Of a stretch of DNA of 37,824 nt, positions 4,446 through 17,344 are shown piece by piece; position 1 is the first letter of the stretch, and every line of letters begins with the position of its first letter. The stretch lies in NCBI GenBank assembly GCA_945957295.1, contig CAMFLH010000013.1:1-37824 (forward strand). Reading direction: 5' to 3'. A model generated the notes under the pieces. It had not been told where the DNA came from. It worked only from the letters and a program-made list of their open reading frames with translations, and ran no database searches. The position numbers were made by a program, and so were the translations under genes. Source of the stretch: an uncultured Uliginosibacterium sp. (lineage in GTDB: Bacteria; Pseudomonadota; Gammaproteobacteria; Burkholderiales; Rhodocyclaceae).

Positions 4446-4462
4446 ATACCCCCCTAGGGTAT
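4446..4462 (+). promoter_or_regulatory. Probable DmeR/RcnR-family operator
   Basis: The sequence ATACCCCCCTAGGGTAT is an inverted repeat (ATACCC / GGGTAT) around a C-rich core, ending 14 bases before the dmeR ATG. RcnR, FrmR, InrS and DmeR proteins are known to bind AT-flanked C/G-tract sites of this kind. Its position between a possible -10 and the regulator start fits autorepression of dmeRF that is relieved by metal. The assignment is by pattern only. Confidence 0.75.
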
Positions 4463-4476
4463 GTGATGAGTGCGCC

Positions 4477-4755
4477 ATGAGCCACACGATCCGTGAGAAA
4501 ACCAAGTTGTTGGCCAGGGTGCGGCGCATCCGGGGCCAGGTGGAAGCGCTTGAGCGCGCGCTCGACACCGAGAAGGGGTGTGCAGAGATCCTTCACCAGA
4601 TTGCAGCTACACGTGGCGCAATCAGCGGGCTGATGGCCGAGGTGCTCGAGGAGCATATTCGTACCCACATCGCCGACCCATCGATCGCCTCCGACGACGA
4701 GCGCACCAAGGGCGCGGACGAGTTGATCGACGTCCTGCGGGCCTACATCAAGTGA
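4477..4755 (+). CDS. dmeR: DmeR, Ni/Co-sensing repressor of the RcnR/CsoR family
   Basis: A 92-residue all-helical DNA-binding repressor. The metal ligands known from E. coli RcnR are all present at the expected positions: His3, Cys35, His60 and His64. That set points to Ni(II)/Co(II) sensing rather than Cu(I) (CsoR) or formaldehyde (FrmR, which lacks His64). The ORF track merges it with a long upstream non-coding stretch. The ATG at 4477 gives the normal family length and places His3 correctly, so I use it. It is followed directly by a CDF exporter gene, the arrangement of the Rhizobium dmeRF operon. An operator-like repeat lies just upstream. Apo-protein would repress the operon, and metal binding would release it. 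Confidence 0.93.
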   Translation: MSHTIREKTKLLARVRRIRGQVEALERALDTEKGCAEILHQIAATRGAISGLMAEVLEEHIRTHIADPSIASDDERTKGADELIDVLRAYIK

Positions 4756-4763
4756 ATGCCAAG

Positions 4764-5765
4764 ATGAGTACCGAGAACATTTCGAACTGGGTCCATGACC
4801 ACGTCTTCGATACCGGCAACGACGCCGCCGAACGAGGCACGCGGGTGGTCATGTGGATCACCGCTGTCACGATGGTGGTCGAAATCGTGGCGGGATGGTG
4901 GTTCAACTCGATGGCGCTGCTTGCCGATGGCTGGCACATGAGCTCCCACGCGGTGGCCATCGGCTTGTCGGCATTTGCCTACGCGACGGCACGCCGCTAC
5001 GCCAAAGACCCGCGCTTCGCCTTTGGCACTTGGAAAATTGAGATTCTCGGCGGTTTCGCCAGCGCGATTTTCCTTGTTGGCGTGGCCGTCCTGATGTTGA
5101 TCGGCTCAGTGGAGCGGATCGTTGCGCCTCAACCGATCCAGTATCGCGAGGCGATCGTGATTGCGATCCTTGGTTTGGCTGTCAATCTGGTGTGCGCGCT
5201 GATTCTTGGCAAAGCGCATCACCACGGTCATGGTCATTCCCATGGTCATGACCATGGGGGTGCCCACGCTGAGCATCATCATGACCATCACCACCATCAT
5301 CACGATCTCAACCTGAAGTCTGCCTATCTGCACGTGGTTGCCGATGCCGCGACGTCGGTGTTGGCGATTGCGGCGCTTTGTGGAGGCTGGATCTTCGGCT
5401 GGTCGTGGCTGGACCCGATCATGGGCATGGTGGGCGCTGTGTTGGTGGCGGTATGGGCCAAGGGGCTGATCGCGGAGACCGGCAAGGTCTTGCTCGATCG
5501 TGAAATGGATCATCCGGTCGTGGATGAGATCCGCGAGGTCGTCGAGTGTGATAACCAGACCGGTGACACGCGGATTGCCGATTTGCACGTCTGGCGCGTC
5601 GGAAAGCAGGTCTACTCTTGTGCGATGACGGTCGTGACACGCGACAACTCACTGACACCCGACGAGATACGCAGGCGCCTGTCCGTCCATGAGGAGGTCG
5701 TGCATTCGACGATCGAAATTCATCATCGTCGCGATGGGTCGGACCCAGCGCTGCAGACGCTGTGA
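4764..5765 (+). CDS. dmeF: DmeF, His-rich CDF divalent metal/proton exporter
   Basis: A cation diffusion facilitator of 333 residues with about six transmembrane helices. TM2 carries ADGWHMSSH (His-x3-His with a nearby Asp) and TM5 carries HVVAD (His-x3-Asp), the transport-site pattern of the DmeF group. Between TM4 and TM5 lies a very His-rich cytoplasmic loop (many HGH, HDH and HHH runs, about 30 residues) typical of DmeF. The C-terminal domain is the usual cytoplasmic CDF domain. DmeF proteins export Co(II) and Ni(II) from the cytoplasm. It is cotranscribed with dmeR: a GTG at 4752 would overlap the dmeR stop (GTGA), while the ATG at 4764 is 8 bases after it. I use the ATG; the difference is four residues. 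Confidence 0.93.
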   Translation: MSTENISNWVHDHVFDTGNDAAERGTRVVMWITAVTMVVEIVAGWWFNSMALLADGWHMSSHAVAIGLSAFAYATARRYAKDPRFAFGTWKIEILGGFASAIFLVGVAVLMLIGSVERIVAPQPIQYREAIVIAILGLAVNLVCALILGKAHHHGHGHSHGHDHGGAHAEHHHDHHHHHHDLNLKSAYLHVVADAATSVLAIAALCGGWIFGWSWLDPIMGMVGAVLVAVWAKGLIAETGKVLLDREMDHPVVDEIREVVECDNQTGDTRIADLHVWRVGKQVYSCAMTVVTRDNSLTPDEIRRRLSVHEEVVHSTIEIHHRRDGSDPALQTL

Positions 5766-5871: not shown

Positions 5872-6228
5872 ATGCGACCCTTCGTCTTCGTCCTGCTGCT
5901 CGTGTTCTTGCCGCTCCAGTCCGTCTGGGGTGCGGCAGCGAGCTATTGTGGGCATGAGTCTGACGCGGCGACCAAGCATTTCGGCCATCACGAGCACAAG
6001 CACCAGCAAGGCAAGGCCGAGCGCAGCACCGACAGCAAGGGTAGCGCCAAGGCAGGCACGTTCGGCGACTTCGACTGCGCGACCTGCCAGCTGAGCGCGC
6101 CGACACTTACCGCCGACCTCGTCGCGGGCATCGCGCCGGCCGCCGCGCCGCCGCAATTCAGCTACCACCGTAGCGACCTCTCGCATATTCCCGCAGGGCC
6201 GGAACGGCCCGATCGCGCGCTCGCCTGA
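5872..6228 (+). CDS. czcI: CzcI-family small exported His/Cys protein
   Basis: A 118-residue protein with a signal peptide (RPFVFVLLLVFLPLQSVWG). The mature part is small and rich in His and charged residues (GHHEHKHQQGK), with a Cys pair in DCATCQLSAP. This is the pattern of CzcI, a poorly understood small protein encoded at the head of czcCBA clusters and thought to act in regulation or periplasmic metal handling. The ORF track starts it far upstream; the ATG at 5872 opens directly onto the signal peptide. It lies about 106 bases after dmeF and 124 bases before czcC, so it may have its own promoter. Confidence rests mainly on context and composition. Confidence 0.75.
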   Translation: MRPFVFVLLLVFLPLQSVWGAAASYCGHESDAATKHFGHHEHKHQQGKAERSTDSKGSAKAGTFGDFDCATCQLSAPTLTADLVAGIAPAAAPPQFSYHRSDLSHIPAGPERPDRALA

Positions 6229-6352: not shown

Positions 6353-7666
6353 ATGCGATTCAAGTATCTCGTCGCGGCCACGCTATGGGCCGCGACTCAA
6401 GGGGCGAGTCTCGCCCAGAACACCGTCGTGCCACTGGCCGCCGAGCCAGCCCAACGCGCGCTCACACTCGACGAGGCGTGGCGCCGGGCCGAACAGGCCA
6501 ACCCGGCGCTGTGGCGCAAGGCCGCCGAGCAAGTCGCAGTCGAGGGGGCGGCGCAGGATGCACGCCCGCTCCTCTTCAACAACCCGCAGATCAGCTGGGA
6601 AGGCACCCGGCGCGAGGTCCCCCTGAGCGGGGCGCCGGATGAGCGCCGCAAGGAGTGGTCGGCGGGGCTCTCGCAGACGCTGGAGATCGGTGGGCAGCGC
6701 AGCTATCGCGTGTCCGCCGCCGAGGCGGCGATCACCGCACACGGGGCTGAGCTGGAGAGTCTGCGGCGCGACCTGCGTGTGCGCGTTGCCCAGCAGTTCT
6801 ATCGGGTGCAGGCGTTGCAGCAGCGGCTTGGCGTCGAGGAAGCCGCGCTCGCGTTGTTCGAGCAGACCGCGTCGGCGGTGGCCAAACGGCGTGCGGCGGG
6901 CGAAGACACCAAGCTCGATGCGAACGTCGCCGTAGTGGAAGCGGAACGCGCGCGCAGTCAGTTCGACGCCACCCGCGAGCAACTGATCGAAGCGCGCGAT
7001 GAACTTGAGGCGACGCTGCAGTTGCCGGCGGGCAGTCAGCCGGCGGTGTCAGCGGATCTTGCCGACGCACTCGCTCAGCCCCTCCCGGCGCTGGCCCCTT
7101 TGCTCTCGGCCTTGCCGATGCAGCCCGGCCAGCGAGCACTCACCGCGCAGGAGGAAGGTGCCCGAGCAAAGCTGGGCCTGGAACGTGCCAGCCGCATTCC
7201 GGATGTCACCCTGGGCTTGAGCCTTGGGCGCGAGGGCGCGGCCGACGCCCGCGAGCGCTTGACGACGCTGTCGCTGTCCGTGCCCCTACCACTGTTCAAA
7301 CGCAACGCGAGCGGGGTCGGCGAGGCGAGCGCGGCCTTGTTGCAAGCACAGATCGAACGCGAGCGCGGCTTGCGAGACGGTGAGGCGGCTGTACGCAGCC
7401 TGCACTTGCGACTGCAGAGCCTGCAGCGCCGCGTGCAGCGGCTGCAGAGCGTGGTTGCCCCAACGCTGGCGAGTAACGCACAGCTTTCCGAAAAGTCGCT
7501 GCGCGCTGGGCAGATCGGCCTGCTCGAACACATCGTCGTCAGCCGGCAGGCGCTTGACGCCCGCCGCGACCTGATCGACGCCCAACTCGACTTCCAGAAC
7601 ACACGCCTCGCACTGATGCAGGCCGCCGGCCAGGCGCTGGCCCCCGAACAAGGAACACAACCATGA
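6353..7666 (+). CDS. czcC: CzcC-like outer-membrane efflux protein (TolC family)
   Basis: A 437-residue outer-membrane factor of an RND tripartite pump. It has a signal peptide (VAATLWAATQGASLAQ) and two OEP-type repeats of long coiled-coil helices. TLDEAWRRAEQANPAL opens the first repeat, and the matching second repeat runs through LERASRIPDVTLGLSLGRE to LLEHIVVSRQALDARRDLIDAQLDFQ. It would form the trimeric channel through which CzcA expels metal. A good Shine-Dalgarno (AGGAGA) precedes the ATG. The stop overlaps the czcB start (ATGA), which indicates translational coupling. The family identification is firm. The specific name czcC rests on the czcB/czcA partners. Confidence 0.9.
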   Translation: MRFKYLVAATLWAATQGASLAQNTVVPLAAEPAQRALTLDEAWRRAEQANPALWRKAAEQVAVEGAAQDARPLLFNNPQISWEGTRREVPLSGAPDERRKEWSAGLSQTLEIGGQRSYRVSAAEAAITAHGAELESLRRDLRVRVAQQFYRVQALQQRLGVEEAALALFEQTASAVAKRRAAGEDTKLDANVAVVEAERARSQFDATREQLIEARDELEATLQLPAGSQPAVSADLADALAQPLPALAPLLSALPMQPGQRALTAQEEGARAKLGLERASRIPDVTLGLSLGREGAADARERLTTLSLSVPLPLFKRNASGVGEASAALLQAQIERERGLRDGEAAVRSLHLRLQSLQRRVQRLQSVVAPTLASNAQLSEKSLRAGQIGLLEHIVVSRQALDARRDLIDAQLDFQNTRLALMQAAGQALAPEQGTQP

Positions 7667-8859
7667 CCGAGAACCTCACCTCACATCGCCCTGCGCCACG
7701 CCTGAGTCTGCTCGCCAGTGCCGTCGCGATTGCCCTGCTGGCCGGATGCGGCGCGAAGGGCGAAGCGCCTGACACGGCCGACACGGCGCCGAAGGCCGAG
7801 GCCGCCGCCCCGCATGAAGAGGGCACCCTGAATCTGAGCAAGAAAGAGCGGACGCGCGCCGGCATCCGGGTCGAGGCGCTGACGGCCATGCCGCTCAAGG
7901 ATCTGCTTGAGGTCACCGCGACGATCCAGCCGAATGCCGACCGTTTTGCCCGTGTGGCGGCGCCGGTCGAGGGGCGCATCGTCAGCGTGGCGACTCCGCT
8001 GGGGGCGCAGGTGCGCGCCGGCCAGCCGCTGGCCCAGGTTGAAAGCGTGGCGCTGGGGGAGGCCAACGCAGCCCTGAGCGCGGCGCGTGCGGCGGCCCGT
8101 ATTGCCGACGCCGACTTCAAGCGTGCGGAAGCCTTGAACGCGGACGAAATCATCGCCCAGAAGGACTACCTGCGTGCTCGCGCCGAACACGAGAAGGCGG
8201 CCGCCGAGTTGCGCGCGGCGGAGGAGCGGGTGCGGGTGCTGGGGGCTGATCCATCCGCCGCTGGGCGAAGTGGCGCCCGGCTGACTGTCGTCGCCCCGTT
8301 CGCCGGCACCGTAGTCGCGCGCAAGGCCACCGTTGGCGAACTGGCCACGCCGGCCGAGCCGATGTTCGCGGTGGCGGATCTCAGCCGCGTGTGGATCGAA
8401 GCCAACCTGACCGAAGCGATGCTCGCGCACGTGCGCCCGGGCGCGCAGGCCAGCATCAGCGTCGAGGCGTATCCCGGCGAGGTCTTCGAGGGCAAGGTGA
8501 GCTACGTGGCGGGCATGCTCGACAAGGCCTCGCGCACGGTCCCTGCGCGGATCGAGCTGGCCAACAAGGACGGGCGCCTGAAGCCGGAGATGTTCGCCAA
8601 GGCGCGCATCGAGGCCGGCGGCGCTGGCGAAGAGCGCCTTGCGGTGCCGGACGACGCAATCATCCTGCTGCAGGGGCAGCCCACGGTCTTCGTGGCAGAG
8701 GGCGATGGCTTTGCGCCGCGCGCGGTCGATCTGGGCGAGAAGCGTGGCGGCCGCACCGTCGTGCGTTCGGGTGTTGCGGCCGGCGAGCAGCTGGTCGTCG
8801 CGGGGACGTATGCCTTGAAGGCACGTCTGCTGAAGTCGCAGATCGGCGACGAGCACTGA
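7663..8859 (+). CDS. czcB: CzcB-like periplasmic adaptor (membrane-fusion lipoprotein)
   Basis: A 398-residue RND periplasmic adaptor. The N-terminus is a lipoprotein signal (AIALLAGC), so Cys is probably lipidated and the protein anchored to the inner membrane. The barrel-sandwich/lipoyl halves are visible (VAAPVEGRIVSVATPLGAQV and later VVAPFAGTVVARKATVGE), separated by an Ala-rich helical hairpin (about residues 120-190). A beta-barrel and membrane-proximal domain follow (SRVWIEANLTEAML, YPGEVFEGKVSYV). It would bridge CzcA and CzcC and may hand metal to the pump. The start overlaps the czcC stop by four bases, and czcA begins 13 bases after its end. It lacks the long His-rich N-terminal stretch of some CzcB proteins. 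Confidence 0.92.
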   Translation: MTENLTSHRPAPRLSLLASAVAIALLAGCGAKGEAPDTADTAPKAEAAAPHEEGTLNLSKKERTRAGIRVEALTAMPLKDLLEVTATIQPNADRFARVAAPVEGRIVSVATPLGAQVRAGQPLAQVESVALGEANAALSAARAAARIADADFKRAEALNADEIIAQKDYLRARAEHEKAAAELRAAEERVRVLGADPSAAGRSGARLTVVAPFAGTVVARKATVGELATPAEPMFAVADLSRVWIEANLTEAMLAHVRPGAQASISVEAYPGEVFEGKVSYVAGMLDKASRTVPARIELANKDGRLKPEMFAKARIEAGGAGEERLAVPDDAIILLQGQPTVFVAEGDGFAPRAVDLGEKRGGRTVVRSGVAAGEQLVVAGTYALKARLLKSQIGDEH

Positions 8860-8872
8860 GCGAAGGAGAACG

Positions 8873-11800
8873 ATGATGCTCAATGCAATCGTGGATGCCG
8901 CGCTGCGGTACAAGGTGCTGGTGCTGGTAGCGTTCGCCGTGGTCGTCGGGCTCGGCGTTCAGGCCTTCCGCAACGTGCCGGTCGATGCTCTCCCGGATGT
9001 CACGCCGGTGCAGGTCAACATCTACACCGAGTCGCCTGGCCTTGCCGCCGAAGACGTCGAGAAGTTGCTGACGACGCCGATCGAGGGCGCGATGGCCGGG
9101 CTTGCGGGGGTCGAGGAAGTGCGCTCGGTGTCCCTGTTCGGCCTTTCGTATGTCGGCGTGTATTTCAAAGACAACGTCGACATCTACTTCGCGCGCCGGC
9201 TGGTCGGCGAGAAGCTGCAGGAAGCCAAGGAGCGGCTGCCGCAAGGCTACGGTGAGCCGGTGCTGGGGCCGAACACCTCGGGCCTCGGCCAGGTGTTCTG
9301 GTACACCGTGGAGTCTGCGGACAAGAAGCTCTCCGCGATGGATCTGCGCACCCTGCATGACTGGACGGTGCGCCTGATCCTGCGCACCGCGCCGGGCGTG
9401 GACGACGTCATCTCCTGGGGCGGCGAAGAGAAGCAGTACCAGGTGCAGATCGACCCGGCGAAGCTGATCAAGTACGAGCTCGGCTTCAAGGAAGTGATGG
9501 AGCAGCTCACCGCCAACAACAAGCAGGTTGGCGGGCAGTATCTGAACATCGGGCGGGAGCAGTACCTCGTGCGTGGTTTGGGGCTGGTGGCGAACACGCA
9601 AGACATCGGCTCCATCGTGCTCGCCGAGCGCGACGGCACACCGATCTATGTGCGCGATGTGGCCACCGTGACCGAAGCGCCCGCTCTGCGCTTCGGCGCG
9701 GTGACGCGCGACGGCAAGGAGGCGGTGCTTGGCATGGCGCTTTCGCGCGTCGGCGAGAACGCGAAGAGCGTGGTCGATGCGGTGAAGGCCAAGCTCGCCA
9801 CCGCTCAGGCCGCACTGCCCGAGGGCGTGAGCCTCAAGCCGATCTATGACCGCACCGACATCGTCGAGAAGGCGCTGAAGACGGCCGAGAGCGCGCTGGT
9901 CGAGGGCTCCATCCTCGTCGTGATCGTGCTGTTCCTGTTCCTCGGGGAAGTGCGCTCGGCGATAGTCGTGATCGTGACTTTGCCGCTGGCGATGCTGATG
10001 GCCTTCCTGATGATGAATCAGGTTGGTATGTCGGCGAACCTGATGTCCTTGGCAGGGCTTGCGATCGGCATCGGCATGATGGTCGATGGCGCGGTGGTGA
10101 TGGTCGAGAACGCCTTCCGCCTGCTCGCCCATGCGAAGGAATCCGGCAAGCCGATCAACAGGACGCACCTGATTCTGGAGGCCGCGCGCGAGGTGGCGAA
10201 CCCGATCGCCTTCGCGATCCTGATCATCATCGTGGTGTTCCTGCCGCTGTTCTCGCTCACCGGCCTCGAAGGCAAGCTCTTCAAGCCGATGGCGCTGACG
10301 ATCACGTTTGCGATGGCCGGCTCCTTGATCCTCTCGCTCACGCTGGTCCCGGTGCTCGCTGCACTGATCCTCAAGCCCAAGGAGGAGAAAGATACCTTCG
10401 TGGTGCGTCATGCCAAGGCCGTGTACCTGCCGCTGCTCGACTGGGCGCTCGGCCACAAGAGGCAGGTGATGGTGGCGGCCGTGAGCTTGCTGGTGGGCTC
10501 GCTCGCACTGTTCCCGCTGCTGGGCAAGGAGTTCATGCCCACGCTGCAGGAAGGTTCGATCATGTTCCGCATCACCGGGATTCCCTCGACCTCGCTCGAT
10601 GAGTCGATCCGCGTGTCGAACGTGGTGGATACGACGCTGCGTGAGCGCTTCCCGCAGGTGCGCTCGGTGCTCGCGACGATTGGCCGTGCCGAGAAGGGCG
10701 AGACTGCCGATGTGAACTACATGGAAGTGCTGCTCGACATGAAGCCCGAGGCCGAGTGGCCTGCCAGGGTCTCCTACGCGAAGCTCTCGGCGGACATGCA
10801 GGCGGTGCTGGAGGAGACCGTGCCGACGGCAGTGTTCGGCGCGACGCAGCCGATCCAGATGCGTGTCGAGGAACTGATCTCCGGCGTGCGCGCAACCCTC
10901 GCGCTGAAGCTCTATGGCGAGGACCTCGCGACGCTCGACCGCTTGAGCGGGCAGATCAAGTCGGTGCTCGACAAGGTGCCGGGCGTGGCGGACCTCTCGG
11001 CGGAGGCCAACAAGGGCAAGCCGCAGCTCGTCATCAAGGTGGACCGCGAGGCGGCGGCGCGCTACGGCGTCAACGCGGACGAGGTGCTGGAGATCGTGCA
11101 GTCCGGCATCGGCGGCAGCGCTGTGTCGACCCTGATCGACGGCACCAAGCGCTTCGACATTGCCGTGCGCCTTGCCGAGAACTACCGCGCCAATCCGGCG
11201 GCGATTGCGGCGATTCCGTTGCGCACCCGCGAAGGGGCGCTGGTGCCTTTCGGGCAGGTGGCGAAGTTCGAGCTCGACGAGGGCTACTCCTTCGTACGCC
11301 GTGAGGCCCTGCAGCGCTATGCCGTGCTGCAGATGGACGTGAAGGGGCGCGATGTCGGCAGCTTCGTGAAGGAGGCCGATGCGCGTCTGCGCGACCAGGT
11401 GAAGCTGCCCGCGGGCTACTGGGTGGAGTGGGGCGGCGCTTTCGAGAACCAGCAGCGCGCGATGGCGCGGCTCGCGATGATCGTGCCGCTGACGATCGGC
11501 TTGATCTTCCTGCTGCTCTACACCGCCTTCAACTCGGTGCGGCACGCCACGCTGACCATCGCCAACGTGCCCTTCGCGATCATCGGCGGCATCGTCAGCC
11601 TCTTCGTGACGGGTCAGTACCTGTCAGTGCCGTCAGCCATCGGTTTCATTGCGGTGTTCGGTGTCGCGATGCTCAACGGCATCGTGATGGTGTCCTTTCT
11701 GAACGACCTGCGCCAGCGCGGACGAAGCATCCGCGACGCGGTGCGCGAAGGGGCTGCGCTGCGCCTGCGCCCGGTGCTGATGACCGCCACGGTGGCCATC

Positions 11801-11998
11801 CTCGGTCTGGTGCCGATGCTGCTGTCCACCGGCGTTGGTGCCGAAACCCAGCGACCACTGGCGACCGTCGTCGTCGGGGGGCTCTTTACCTCCACGGCAC
11901 TGACGCTGTTGCTCCTGCCACTGCTCTACGAATGGTCCGAACAACGCGCTGAAGCGCGCCGTCAGGTCGCGCTCGATCTGGCCAAGGAAGGAGTCTGA
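8873..11998 (+). CDS. czcA: CzcA/CusA-family heavy-metal RND efflux pump
   Basis: A 1041-residue inner-membrane RND transporter of the heavy-metal efflux (HME) group, of normal length. It shows TM1, a first large periplasmic loop (VPVDALPDVTPVQVNIYTESPG is diagnostic), TM2-6, a second periplasmic loop and TM8-12. TM4 reads AIGIGMMVDGAVVMVENAF: the Asp of DGA and the Glu of VEN used in proton transfer are present. The extra Asp of the DFG triplet found in Zn/Co/Cd pumps such as C. metallidurans CzcA is replaced by AIG. The metal spectrum is therefore uncertain, although gene context (czcI, dmeRF) favours divalent metals. Start at ATG 8873, with a second ATG at 8876; GAAGGAG lies just upstream. 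A 961-residue antisense ORF here is a codon-usage shadow. Confidence 0.93.
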   Translation: MMLNAIVDAALRYKVLVLVAFAVVVGLGVQAFRNVPVDALPDVTPVQVNIYTESPGLAAEDVEKLLTTPIEGAMAGLAGVEEVRSVSLFGLSYVGVYFKDNVDIYFARRLVGEKLQEAKERLPQGYGEPVLGPNTSGLGQVFWYTVESADKKLSAMDLRTLHDWTVRLILRTAPGVDDVISWGGEEKQYQVQIDPAKLIKYELGFKEVMEQLTANNKQVGGQYLNIGREQYLVRGLGLVANTQDIGSIVLAERDGTPIYVRDVATVTEAPALRFGAVTRDGKEAVLGMALSRVGENAKSVVDAVKAKLATAQAALPEGVSLKPIYDRTDIVEKALKTAESALVEGSILVVIVLFLFLGEVRSAIVVIVTLPLAMLMAFLMMNQVGMSANLMSLAGLAIGIGMMVDGAVVMVENAFRLLAHAKESGKPINRTHLILEAAREVANPIAFAILIIIVVFLPLFSLTGLEGKLFKPMALTITFAMAGSLILSLTLVPVLAALILKPKEEKDTFVVRHAKAVYLPLLDWALGHKRQVMVAAVSLLVGSLALFPLLGKEFMPTLQEGSIMFRITGIPSTSLDESIRVSNVVDTTLRERFPQVRSVLATIGRAEKGETADVNYMEVLLDMKPEAEWPARVSYAKLSADMQAVLEETVPTAVFGATQPIQMRVEELISGVRATLALKLYGEDLATLDRLSGQIKSVLDKVPGVADLSAEANKGKPQLVIKVDREAAARYGVNADEVLEIVQSGIGGSAVSTLIDGTKRFDIAVRLAENYRANPAAIAAIPLRTREGALVPFGQVAKFELDEGYSFVRREALQRYAVLQMDVKGRDVGSFVKEADARLRDQVKLPAGYWVEWGGAFENQQRAMARLAMIVPLTIGLIFLLLYTAFNSVRHATLTIANVPFAIIGGIVSLFVTGQYLSVPSAIGFIAVFGVAMLNGIVMVSFLNDLRQRGRSIRDAVREGAALRLRPVLMTATVAILGLVPMLLSTGVGAETQRPLATVVVGGLFTSTALTLLLLPLLYEWSEQRAEARRQVALDLAKEGV

Positions 11999-11999
11999 G

Positions 12000-12338
12000 A
12001 TGAAGGAAATCAAGGCCTACGTGCACCGCAGCCGCATCGCCGACGTGATGCAGGCGCTCAAGGAGTCCGAACCCTTCAAGGGCCGAGACGGCGCTCATCG
12101 CCACAACCTGGCAGCCTATGTCGTGAAGGGCTCGCTGCAGGCGCTTGACCGGCAGGAACAGCACTACTCGCTGGATCTGGGCGACGCCGTCATCGATGAG
12201 TACAAGCTCGAGTTCATTTGCGAGGACGCCGACGTTGATGCGCTGGTCTCAATCATCAAGGCTGCCGCGCACACCGGGCGCTGTGCCTGCGGCTGGGTGT
12301 ATGTCGTCGACGTGCTCCGAGCGGAGCACATTGAATGA
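12000..12338 (+). CDS. P-II-like signalling protein of a metal-efflux operon
   Basis: A 112-residue protein with the P-II/CutA-like ferredoxin fold: MKEIKAYVHRSRIADVMQAL opens like GlnB, a T-loop region follows (KGRDGAHRHNLAAYVV) and the C-terminal half is DALVSIIKAAAHTGRCACGWVYVVDV. In canonical P-II proteins that last segment reads G-D-G-K-I-F and binds ATP. Here it is Cys-Ala-Cys-Gly-Trp, so nucleotide binding is doubtful and two potential metal ligands appear. The uridylylated T-loop Tyr is not evident. P-II-like genes next to CusA/CzcA pumps have been described as a separate group (PII-NG). It starts 2 bases after czcA behind AAGGAGT and overlaps the next gene, so it belongs to the efflux operon. 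A role in sensing metal or gating the pump is inferred. Confidence 0.85.
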   Translation: MKEIKAYVHRSRIADVMQALKESEPFKGRDGAHRHNLAAYVVKGSLQALDRQEQHYSLDLGDAVIDEYKLEFICEDADVDALVSIIKAAAHTGRCACGWVYVVDVLRAEHIE

Positions 12339-12724
12339 AGCATTCAAACTTCCGCGACCTGAGGTGGCGGTCGCAGAGTGCGACCCGCACCTGGCTGATC
12401 GCGGCTGCACTGCTATCCGTTACGACATGGGCCACGCCCGGTGATGCAAGTGAGGGGGCTTCGTCGCGCCATCGATCGGGAACGGTGGTCGCCGTCGGGC
12501 CGCTCTCCGAATTGCATCCGACGCGACCCGACCGATGCGCCCGCCCCAGTCCTGCGTTCGATCTTCAGGTCGGCTACGTTGTGATGTATCGCTCACCAGT
12601 GGGCTTCCGGACGCGAGTCGTCGCGCTCAATGAAGCTGAAGCGGCGCGGGTGAGGGTGGGGGATATGGTGAGCGTAGCCAAAGGCTCGTGCAGCGCTGTG
12701 CTGTCGGGTACTGCCACGGAGTAA
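12335..12724 (+). CDS. Small exported protein of unknown function in the czc operon
   Basis: A 129-residue protein with no family I recognise. A basic N-terminus (FRDLRWRSQS) precedes a hydrophobic segment (TWLIAAALLSVTTWATPGDAS) with a likely signal cleavage site near residue 38. The mature part of about 90 residues contains VVAVGPLSELHPT, a short Cys/Pro stretch (DRCARPSP), GYVVMYRSPVGFRTRVVALN and a second Cys (KGSCSAVL). The two Cys could form a disulfide in the periplasm. Its ATG overlaps the TGA of the P-II-like gene, so it is probably translated together with it and belongs to the metal-efflux operon. Function unknown. Confidence 0.65.
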   Translation: MKHSNFRDLRWRSQSATRTWLIAAALLSVTTWATPGDASEGASSRHRSGTVVAVGPLSELHPTRPDRCARPSPAFDLQVGYVVMYRSPVGFRTRVVALNEAEAARVRVGDMVSVAKGSCSAVLSGTATE

Positions 12725-14636: not shown

Positions 14637-15578
14637 TCACAAGCGGGCAAGTTGCTCTGCATGAGTGAGGCATTGTGAGGCAATGGAGGTGTGCAAGGCT
14701 GATCGCCAGCTGGCCGGCAGGCATTGCTCGCCATACAGGGCACCGAGTATCGCGCCAGCGATGGCGCCGGTGGTGTCGGCGTCGCCGCCGCGGTTGACGA
14801 CTTCGATCAGCGCGGCTTCGAAGTTGTCGGTGATGTCGATGGCTTGCAACACCGCGCGCATGGTGTCGACGATGTAGCCACTCGGGTTGAGTGCTGGCTT
14901 GCCACGGAAGTGGAAGGCCGGTTGAGCCTTGACGAGCTCATGGGCGAGGGCGATCACGCCGCGAATGCCGTGGCCGAGGATGCCCGCCTGGATCATGCGG
15001 ACGACGCAGACGGTGGCGGCGTCGGTGAGCGGGTTGTGATGCGTAACACGCGCTTGCGTGATTGCGGCGTCGCGCACCGCGTCGGCAGGGGCGCCGAGCA
15101 GTGCGATTGCGACCGGGGCGCAGCGCATGGTGGCGCCGTTGCCGGCGTCGTCCGATGGTGGCACGCAGGCTTCACCGGTGCGCCGATAGCGTGTGATGCC
15201 GCGCCGTACCGTGTTACCGATGTCGACCGGCTTGCTGCGCATCCATGCGTCGAACGCGCGGGCGTAGTCCTCTGCAGTCGGCTGGCGGTTGCGGATCAGC
15301 GCTTCGGCGACGGCAAAGGCCATGGTGGTGTCATCGGTGACCTGGCCAGGCGCCAGCTTGAGCCAGCCGCCGCCGCGGATCTGCGTGTGGCGGCCATAGT
15401 GCGTGCGAATCTCGCGCGGCGTCATGAATTCCACCGTGGCGCCCAACGCGTCGCCGAGCGCCAGACCGAGCAGCGCACCCCGCGCGTGCGCACGAATGCG
15501 CTCGGCCGCTTCTGCTGGCGGCCACGCGATCTGTGGCGCTGGCCATGGCATTGCCCGCGCTTCGTCCGGGTGAGCCAC
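14637..15578 (-). CDS. draG: DraG, ADP-ribosyl-[dinitrogen reductase] hydrolase
   Basis: A 313-residue ADP-ribosylglycohydrolase. The conserved binuclear metal-site motifs are present: GLALGDALGATVEF near the start, DDTTMAFAVAEAL, and GGDADTTGAIAGAILGALYG near the end. DraG removes ADP-ribose from an Arg of the nitrogenase Fe protein and so reactivates it once ammonium or darkness/anoxia stress has passed. The gene follows nifB and a ferredoxin gene with short gaps on the same strand, so it should be transcribed from the nifB promoter. No draT is in the window. The first start is GTG at 15578, 10 bases after the ferredoxin stop; the ATG at 15551 is an alternative that removes nine residues. 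Confidence 0.93.
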   Translation of the reverse strand: MAHPDEARAMPWPAPQIAWPPAEAAERIRAHARGALLGLALGDALGATVEFMTPREIRTHYGRHTQIRGGGWLKLAPGQVTDDTTMAFAVAEALIRNRQPTAEDYARAFDAWMRSKPVDIGNTVRRGITRYRRTGEACVPPSDDAGNGATMRCAPVAIALLGAPADAVRDAAITQARVTHHNPLTDAATVCVVRMIQAGILGHGIRGVIALAHELVKAQPAFHFRGKPALNPSGYIVDTMRAVLQAIDITDNFEAALIEVVNRGGDADTTGAIAGAILGALYGEQCLPASWRSALHTSIASQCLTHAEQLARL

Positions 15579-15587
15579 GATGCGGGC

Positions 15588-15833
15588 TCATCCGTCGCGG
15601 GCAGCCGGCGACAGCGAGCCGAGCGGGTTAAGGGGCGTGCCGAGTTCGTCGATGATCACGCCCTCGATCGGGCAGATCGCAGCGCACTGCGGCGTGGCGT
15701 GCGCGTCGATGCACTCGGTGCAGCGATCGGAGTCGATCAGGAAATGTGGCTGGGCTTCGAGGATTGCCTGGTGCGGACACAGCGCGACACAAGCCCAGCA
15801 ATTGACGCAGCCCGCAACGATTTCGAGTGCCAT
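15588..15833 (-). CDS. 2[4Fe-4S] ferredoxin of the nif cluster
   Basis: An 81-residue ferredoxin. The first cluster motif is CVNCWACVALCP (C-x2-C-x2-C-x3-C). The second is CTECIDAHATPQCAAICP (C-x2-C-x8-C-x3-C), the longer-spaced motif typical of FdxN/NifB-associated ferredoxins. It probably feeds low-potential electrons to NifB or nitrogenase. The ORF track extends it to 15911, but that extension runs into nifB coding sequence. The ATG at 15833 has a GGGGT-like ribosome site, lies 14 bases after the nifB stop and gives a normal N-terminus (MALEIVAGCVNC). draG follows 9 bases later, so the three genes form an operon. Confidence 0.92.
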   Translation of the reverse strand: MALEIVAGCVNCWACVALCPHQAILEAQPHFLIDSDRCTECIDAHATPQCAAICPIEGVIIDELGTPLNPLGSLSPAARDG

Positions 15834-15847
15834 GCCGCTACCCCGGG

Positions 15848-17344
15848 TTACGCGCGACGCTGGCTGGCTGGCGCAACGCTGAGTTGCCCGTTGTCGAGCA
15901 TCGTTTTCCACGCTTCCCGCAGCGCTGACGCGACGGGTTCCATCGCGTGGGCGCCGTCGGGGCGGATGCCTGCGGCTTCGAGCTTGCCCCAGGGTTCGAT
16001 ACCGATTCGGGCGCAGAGCATCACTTCGCAGTCCGACAGCGCGGTCAGCGTGCGGGCGAGCGTGTTGTCGGCCTCGCCGCAGTCCGCCTCGCCGCCGCAG
16101 TACTGCGCGGCGGCGCAGGTGCCCAGCGCCCGGATTTCCTCGGCGCTGACCTCGAAAATATGGAAGTGCTTGGCGTGACCGAAGTGGGTGTCGATCACCG
16201 CGCCGGTGCTACTTGCCACGGCCATGCGTACGGGCCGGCCGAGGGTCGCGGCCGGGCGAGGGAGTTCGATCACCTGGGCGCTGGCGGCATGGCGTGCCGC
16301 GCGCTTCTCGGCCAACTCCGCATGGATTGCGGCGCGTAGCGCGAGCCGGCGACCCATCGCAGCGTGCTCGTCGATCTGCATCGCTTCGACTTTTTCGAGC
16401 GTGAACTCGGCGCCGCGATCCTCACCCAGCATGCCCACCGCGTCGGCCCGGCATTGCTGGCAGTGGCGCATCATGTTCATGTCGCCGGCGCATTCGTCCT
16501 GCAAGGTTTTGAGCTCCTGCGGGGTGGGGCCGCGCTGGCCGATGAGGCCGAAGTGGGTGCCGTGAGCGGGGTCGGAAATCAGCGGCATCACGTTGTGCAG
16601 GAAGGCGCCTTTGGCGCGCACGATGCGTGAGACTTCCTTCAGGTGCTGGTCGTTGATGCCGGGAATCATCACCGAGTTCACTTTCACCAGTATGCCGCGT
16701 GCGACCAGCATCTCCAGCCCTTGCTGTTGCTGTGCGATGAGGACCTCGGCGGCTTCGCGTCCGGTGATCCGGCGATGCTTCCAGAAGATCCACGGGTAGA
16801 TCTGTGCGCCAATGTCAGGGTCGATGCAGTTGATCGTGATCGTCACATGATCAACGTGATACGCGGCGATCTGGTCGACGTACTGCGGCAGCATCAGCCC
16901 ATTGGTGGAGAGGCACAGTTTCAGGTCGGGTGCGCGCTGCGAGAGTTCGGCGAAGGTGGCGAAAGTACGCTCGGGATTCGCGAGTGCGTCGCCGGGGCCT
17001 GCGATGCCCAGCACGCTCATCTGCGGAATCGCCGCCGCCACTGCAAGCGTCTTCTTTACCGCCTGCGCTGCGGTCAGCACTTCCGAAACGACCCCGGGCC
17101 GCGACTCGTTGCTGCAGTCGTACTTGCGGTTGCAGTAGTTGCACTGGATGTTGCAGGCCGGCGCCACTGCGACATGCATGCGCGCGAAGTACTTGTGTGC
17201 TTCTTCGGAGTAGCAGGGGTGATCCTGTACCCGCTGTGCGACGCTTGCATCCAGCTCGTCGATCTGACTCGCACTGGAGCCGCAGCGCCCGCTGGCGCAT
17301 CCGCTGGCCTTGGCGGCCGTATTCGGGGGGGTAGGCGTCGGCAT
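15848..17344 (-). CDS. nifB: NifB, nitrogenase cofactor (NifB-co) synthase
   Basis: A 498-residue radical-SAM enzyme that fuses two [4Fe-4S] units with a carbide and extra sulfur to make the FeMo-cofactor precursor NifB-co. The SAM-cluster motif is C64-x3-C68-x2-C71 (CNIQCNYC). Upstream is the conserved DHPCYSEEAH. The GIAGPGDALANPERTF and HGTHFGLIGQRGPT segments are standard for NifB. The last 130 residues or so (from VRMAVASSTGAVIDTHFGHA) form the NifX-like C-terminal domain found in most proteobacterial NifB. The Cys-rich N-terminus (ASGCASGRCG) is also typical. The gene is preceded by a sigma-54 promoter and a NifA activator site, and followed by a ferredoxin gene and draG. Confidence 0.98.
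   Translation of the reverse strand: MPTPTPPNTAAKASGCASGRCGSSASQIDELDASVAQRVQDHPCYSEEAHKYFARMHVAVAPACNIQCNYCNRKYDCSNESRPGVVSEVLTAAQAVKKTLAVAAAIPQMSVLGIAGPGDALANPERTFATFAELSQRAPDLKLCLSTNGLMLPQYVDQIAAYHVDHVTITINCIDPDIGAQIYPWIFWKHRRITGREAAEVLIAQQQQGLEMLVARGILVKVNSVMIPGINDQHLKEVSRIVRAKGAFLHNVMPLISDPAHGTHFGLIGQRGPTPQELKTLQDECAGDMNMMRHCQQCRADAVGMLGEDRGAEFTLEKVEAMQIDEHAAMGRRLALRAAIHAELAEKRAARHAASAQVIELPRPAATLGRPVRMAVASSTGAVIDTHFGHAKHFHIFEVSAEEIRALGTCAAAQYCGGEADCGEADNTLARTLTALSDCEVMLCARIGIEPWGKLEAAGIRPDGAHAMEPVASALREAWKTMLDNGQLSVAPASQRRA

Follow-up and report, generated by a model that had tools for sequence, protein, structure and literature searches.

A PII-NG protein encoded behind a CusA/CzcA-family efflux pump in Uliginosibacterium carries a Cys-x-Cys pair private to one gene copy

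Introduction

What might a P-II protein sense when the loop that normally carries its nucleotide-binding motif has been rewritten and its gene lies directly behind that of a metal efflux pump? This question is raised by an open reading frame at positions 12000-12338 (+) of a 37,824-nucleotide stretch of DNA from an uncultured Uliginosibacterium sp. (contig CAMFLH010000013.1), the whole of which is called the window below. A first-pass annotation had described its product as P-II-like, with RCACGWVYV standing where other P-II proteins have GDGKIF, and had proposed that the resulting Cys-x-Cys pair (CxC) makes it a metal-responsive regulator of CzcA, a use of the fold said to be little described.

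That last phrase is apt insofar as no direct functional test of a P-II/metal-pump linkage was found in the open-access literature searched, but the linkage itself already has a name, PII-NG (PII New Group), which is credited to Sant'Anna et al. (2009; doi 10.1007/s00239-009-9209-6) in both PMC7726332 and PMC11617674. The group is represented in Proteobacteria and some Bacteroidetes, its genes lying in linkage with those for heavy-metal efflux pumps (PMC11617674). One of them, GSU2134 of Geobacter sulfurreducens, is encoded in a cobalt-induced czcABC operon, and metal sensing was proposed for it by comparison with CutA1, which has a P-II-like trimeric fold and an association with metal tolerance (PMC7726332). 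Searches for CzcA-linked P-II proteins returned no literature beyond these two sources.

A PII-NG gene in a metal-efflux operon

The 112-residue product of the window gene scores 28.0 bits against PF00543 in a Pfam scan (cut-off 25), a model that is also matched by 64/64 members of the alignment built around it. The profile of that alignment recovers solved PII chains (E about 1e-18), the fold predicted for the window protein from the same 64 sequences (AlphaFold2) has a mean pLDDT of 88 and a pTM of 0.82, and all 50 PDB matches listed for it are PII or GlnK proteins, so P-II identity is borne out by domain model, profile and predicted structure. Membership in CutA1 was ruled out, as a Pfam scan at E-values up to 1 gives only PF00543. 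Compared with its closest relative in the genus, the gene differs at 42 codons synonymously and at 10 non-synonymously, suggesting that it is under constraint.

The operon setting described for this gene is also confirmed. In the window the order is C-B-A-PII, with genes for an outer-membrane factor (CzcC/TolC-like, 6353..7666, +; assigned from operon position, TIGR01844 and IhpA being below cut-off), an RND periplasmic adaptor (CzcB-like, 7663..8859, +; TIGR01730 over cut-off, TIGR00999 below its own) and a CusA/CzcA-family RND pump subunit (8873..11998, +; TIGR00914, 1100.9 bits, over cut-off) together spanning 6353-11998. A single base separates the czcA stop from the ATG that opens the P-II frame, and translation of the PII-NG gene is probably coupled to that of czcA. 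The TM4 motif of the pump reads AIGIGMMVDGAVVMVEN and differs from DFG..VDGA..VEN, the form found in CzcA proper.

Upstream of the pump genes lie those for a His- and Cys-bearing protein with an N-terminal hydrophobic stretch (5872..6228, +; DUF2946-like, PF11162 just below cut-off), for DmeF, a CDF-family Co(II)/Ni(II) exporter (4767..5765, +; NF033827 at 377.6 bits, cut-off 250), and for a metal-type repressor of the CsoR/RcnR/FrmR family (4477..4755, +; PF02583 over cut-off, the FrmR and RcnR models below theirs). The palindrome ATACCCCCCTAGGGTAT (4446..4462, +), read from the sequence 15 bases before the repressor gene, is a possible operator, given its resemblance to the operators of RcnR and CsoR. 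The presence of dmeF hints that the window holds a Co/Ni-type gene cluster. The order DUF2946-C-B-A-PII recurs in two genomes of the same genus (G001 and G005), and no dmeF match was found in the 12-13 kb stretches examined there, so this hint is local to the window.

The association with the pump is widespread. Among 91 Trp-type entries (a loop class defined below; L043 and L074 are left out of this count, and the window and the second copy in its genome are each counted twice), 78 have a czcA stop no more than 150 bp upstream, and 54 of the 78 share one and the same 4-base overlap; the remaining 13 have no close upstream czcA in the stretch examined, some for lack of sequence. The linkage recurs among gammaproteobacterial relatives, and in RefSeq plasmid records a 'P-II family nitrogen regulator' adjoins a 'CusA/CzcA family heavy metal efflux RND transporter'. 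Like the PII-NG systems already known, the window thus combines a P-II domain protein and a CzcA-type pump in one operon, although the GSU2134 gene comes first in its czcABC operon whereas the window gene follows czcA. The window protein fits this known, if little-studied, group as an ordinary member.

The same genome carries separate GlnB and GlnK genes and a second PII-NG copy on a 4.4-kb contig, with a CzcA that is 96% and a P-II protein that is 82% identical to those of the window. Duplicates are also seen elsewhere: a Burkholderiales metagenome-assembled genome has a second PII-NG copy behind a czcA remnant (L001, 11100-11757), and at L018 a frameshifted PII-NG duplicate (5253-5594) lies between czcA and an intact PII-NG gene.

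The Cys-x-Cys pair among relatives

The sequence RCACGWVYV is present as reported, at residues 94-102 (12279..12305, +; codons CGC TGT GCC TGC GGC TGG GTG TAT GTC), with C95 encoded at 12282-12284 (+), C97 at 12288-12290 (+) and W99 at 12294-12296 (+). In the alignment these residues pair with K85-V93 of the GlnB from the same genome, that is, with the GDGKIF-bearing B-loop. Relatives were collected by a scan of genome contigs, among whose patterns was CACGWVYV itself, a bias, if any, toward CxC, and by whole-genome searches of the genus, family and order. The resulting set of 102 distinct proteins, with one frameshifted duplicate left out, splits by loop into a Trp type (83 proteins; typically TGQ-x-x-A-G-W) and a GDG type (19 proteins).

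Conservation of the cysteine pair in orthologues, on which the first-pass annotation had staked its metal site, was not seen. CxC occurs in 1/102 relatives, the window copy, and is absent from the 101 others, among them the second copy in the same genome and two orthologues in the genus; among gammaproteobacterial relatives it was found in 0/22. The family loop consensus is TGQxxAGW, with variability concentrated at positions 95 and 96. C95 is private to the window copy, and C97 is shared by three proteins: the window copy, the second copy in its genome (TGGGCCGW) and one from a same-genus genome (TGRGTCGW), while another same-genus genome has TGRGASGW and neither cysteine. Since the tree groups the window copy, the second copy and G001 (support 96/86), the simplest account has C97 originating inside the genus, with C95 added in the window copy alone.

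A search for convergent cases gave a similar picture, in that an order-wide DNA pattern scan for CxC matched 47/399 genomes, a reversed control pattern also giving scattered matches, and only the window match coincided with a detected P-II gene. The relatives, the second copy and the copies in the genus rule out a conserved CxC metal motif. As judged from these comparisons, C95-x-C97 is most likely lineage-specific variation in a loop that is free to vary at positions 95-96, and not the sensor. The pair is real, but it is private to one gene copy and so is unable to bear the weight that had been placed on it.

Lost and conserved residues in the Trp-loop branch

The reported loss of the nucleotide motif does hold, and it is part of a larger set of replacements. 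When the window protein is aligned with GlnB of the same genome, D88 becomes C97 (mostly Ala across the family), K90 becomes W99, K58 becomes E67, R38 becomes Q47, Q39 becomes A48, Y51 becomes L60, R101 becomes H110 and R103 becomes E112. In GlnB these residues serve the binding of the ATP phosphates and of 2-oxoglutarate, the latter through Q39 and K58, and Y51 is the site of uridylylation. The window protein thus has replacements for the canonical ATP-site residues of GlnB and GlnK (the GDGK loop, R101, R103 and R38), for the 2-oxoglutarate residues Q39 and K58, for Y51, and for the RIRTGE tail. Across the Pseudomonadota branch K90 is changed to Trp and K58 to Glu, and D88, R38, Q39, R101 and R103 are mostly lost. 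These replacements relative to GlnB show, at the level of aligned residues, that most of the canonical ATP-phosphate and 2-oxoglutarate contacts have been lost throughout the Trp-loop branch.

Trp-type and GDG-type sequences stand apart on the tree, in whose labels two Trp-type sequences are marked wrongly; L043 and L074, Trp-loop sequences that carry GDG elsewhere, are counted as Trp-type in the residue counts. Members of the GDG-type branch come from Bacteroidota, Ignavibacteriota and other phyla; they retain GDG together with a K/RIRTG tail, and the branch is CzcA-linked in part. The P-II proteins at L050-L070 and L158 have GDG and an Arg-rich tail, and several lie near CzcA genes, offering a nucleotide-competent counterpart for comparison.

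Other positions are well conserved in the Trp-type branch, namely H9 (71/83), E67 (81/83), C74 (83/83; codon at 12219..12221, +) and W99 (83/83), as well as N36, Y56-S57, E71, T92-G93 and G98, and C74 is a family-wide cysteine, being present in 18/19 GDG-type proteins. Among gammaproteobacterial relatives C74 is missing in 5/22 and W99 in 2/22, so conservation singles out no one metal site.

Possible functions of the PII-NG protein

To our knowledge, no regulatory partner in the cytosol has been established for RND metal pumps. A precedent for control of a transporter by a P-II protein is provided by GlnK, which is cotranscribed with, and docks on, the trimeric membrane transporter AmtB, and which has the fold of the window protein (the E. 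coli GlnK-AmtB structure, PDB 2ns1, is among the fold matches). By analogy, the PII-NG protein would form a homotrimer, as is usual for P-II proteins, and its T-loop region would dock on the cytosolic face of trimeric CzcA, as GlnK does on AmtB, adjusting or gating export. The ligand would differ from the canonical ATP/2-oxoglutarate and might be the metal itself, bound through conserved residues such as H9, E67 or C74. Such a cytosolic trimer, docked on CzcA and tuned by a non-canonical ligand, is the reading that we favour, at a likelihood a little better than even, and in this respect the pump-regulatory role first suggested for the gene remains plausible.

It can be proposed, as a tentative possibility that we would not expect to hold, that the Trp-loop branch as a whole has given up the ATP/2-oxoglutarate site and turned into a cytosolic regulator dedicated to an RND efflux pump, one that answers to metal or another new ligand; on that proposal the window copy may be further tuned by its cysteines. 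A pump-linked P-II branch that lacks the canonical nucleotide site falls, in any case, inside the known group, and significance attaches to the whole family, not to two cysteines. A P-II family fixed to RND metal pumps and lacking that site would offer a clean way to ask what a P-II trimer is able to sense, and whether efflux comes under P-II control in the manner of ammonium uptake.

Altered adenine-nucleotide sensing (of AMP, ADP, cAMP, SAM or similar), coupling pump activity to the energy state of the cell, is unlikely. Positions on the adenine side are kept, E62 and G89 of GlnB corresponding to the invariant E71 and G98, G35 to the common G44, and T83-G84 to T92-G93, and an energy cue would make sense because CzcA is proton-driven. 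Other adenine ligands are bound by P-II-like proteins such as SbtB and CPII, which share the fold and are associated with transport other than that of ammonium or with metabolism. These two are linked to bicarbonate or carboxysome genes and the window protein to a metal pump, and none was found among the best fold matches listed. Against adenine sensing, K90, R101, R103, R38 and Q39 are all replaced, and a Trp occupies the position of the phosphate-binding Lys in 83/83 Trp-type relatives.

The PII-NG protein might instead sense no small molecule and belong to the CzcA pump as a constitutive subunit that serves its assembly or stability. The very tight czcA linkage with its frequent 4-base overlap and the loss of ligand-site residues would fit this role, and the conserved surface-type residues N36, Y56-S57 and E67 could form an interface; it is nonetheless improbable, as close relatives occur in just about 5-7% of the genomes sampled from the family or the order, and RND metal pumps, which are much more widespread, function in the absence of PII-NG. 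Least credible of all is a purpose-built thiol metal site at C95-x-C97 that replaced the nucleotide site and acts on CzcA, for although CxC commonly serves as a soft-metal ligand pair, the gene lies within a metal-efflux operon and the corresponding loop of the second copy contains neighbouring cysteines (C96-C97), C95 is absent from the three closest copies, no other relative has the pair, positions 95 and 96 vary, and orthologues with AVA or PEA there share the operon setting.

The exported protein and neighbouring genes

The PII-NG stop overlaps the start of a gene for a small exported protein (12335..12724, +) that has no Pfam or NCBIfam match. The exported protein noted in the first-pass annotation is real, and it was found in the genus only: relatives (47-49% identity) are encoded by the second copy in the same genome and by G001, each directly behind the P-II gene, while none was found in the same-genus G005 or in viral contigs. 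C68 and C119 are common to all three exported proteins, and a lipobox-like LAAC/LAGC is present in those of the second copy and G001 and lacking in that of the window.

Just past the metal operon, on the opposite strand, lies a nitrogen-fixation cluster (14637-17344, -) encoding a 4Fe-4S ferredoxin as well as DraG and NifB, which match TIGR02662 and TIGR01290, respectively, over cut-off. In other bacteria DraG is a target of canonical P-II proteins, as in the DraG-GlnZ complex; that structure (PDB 3o5t) is among the fold matches of the window protein, with no link between this cluster and the PII-NG gene implied.
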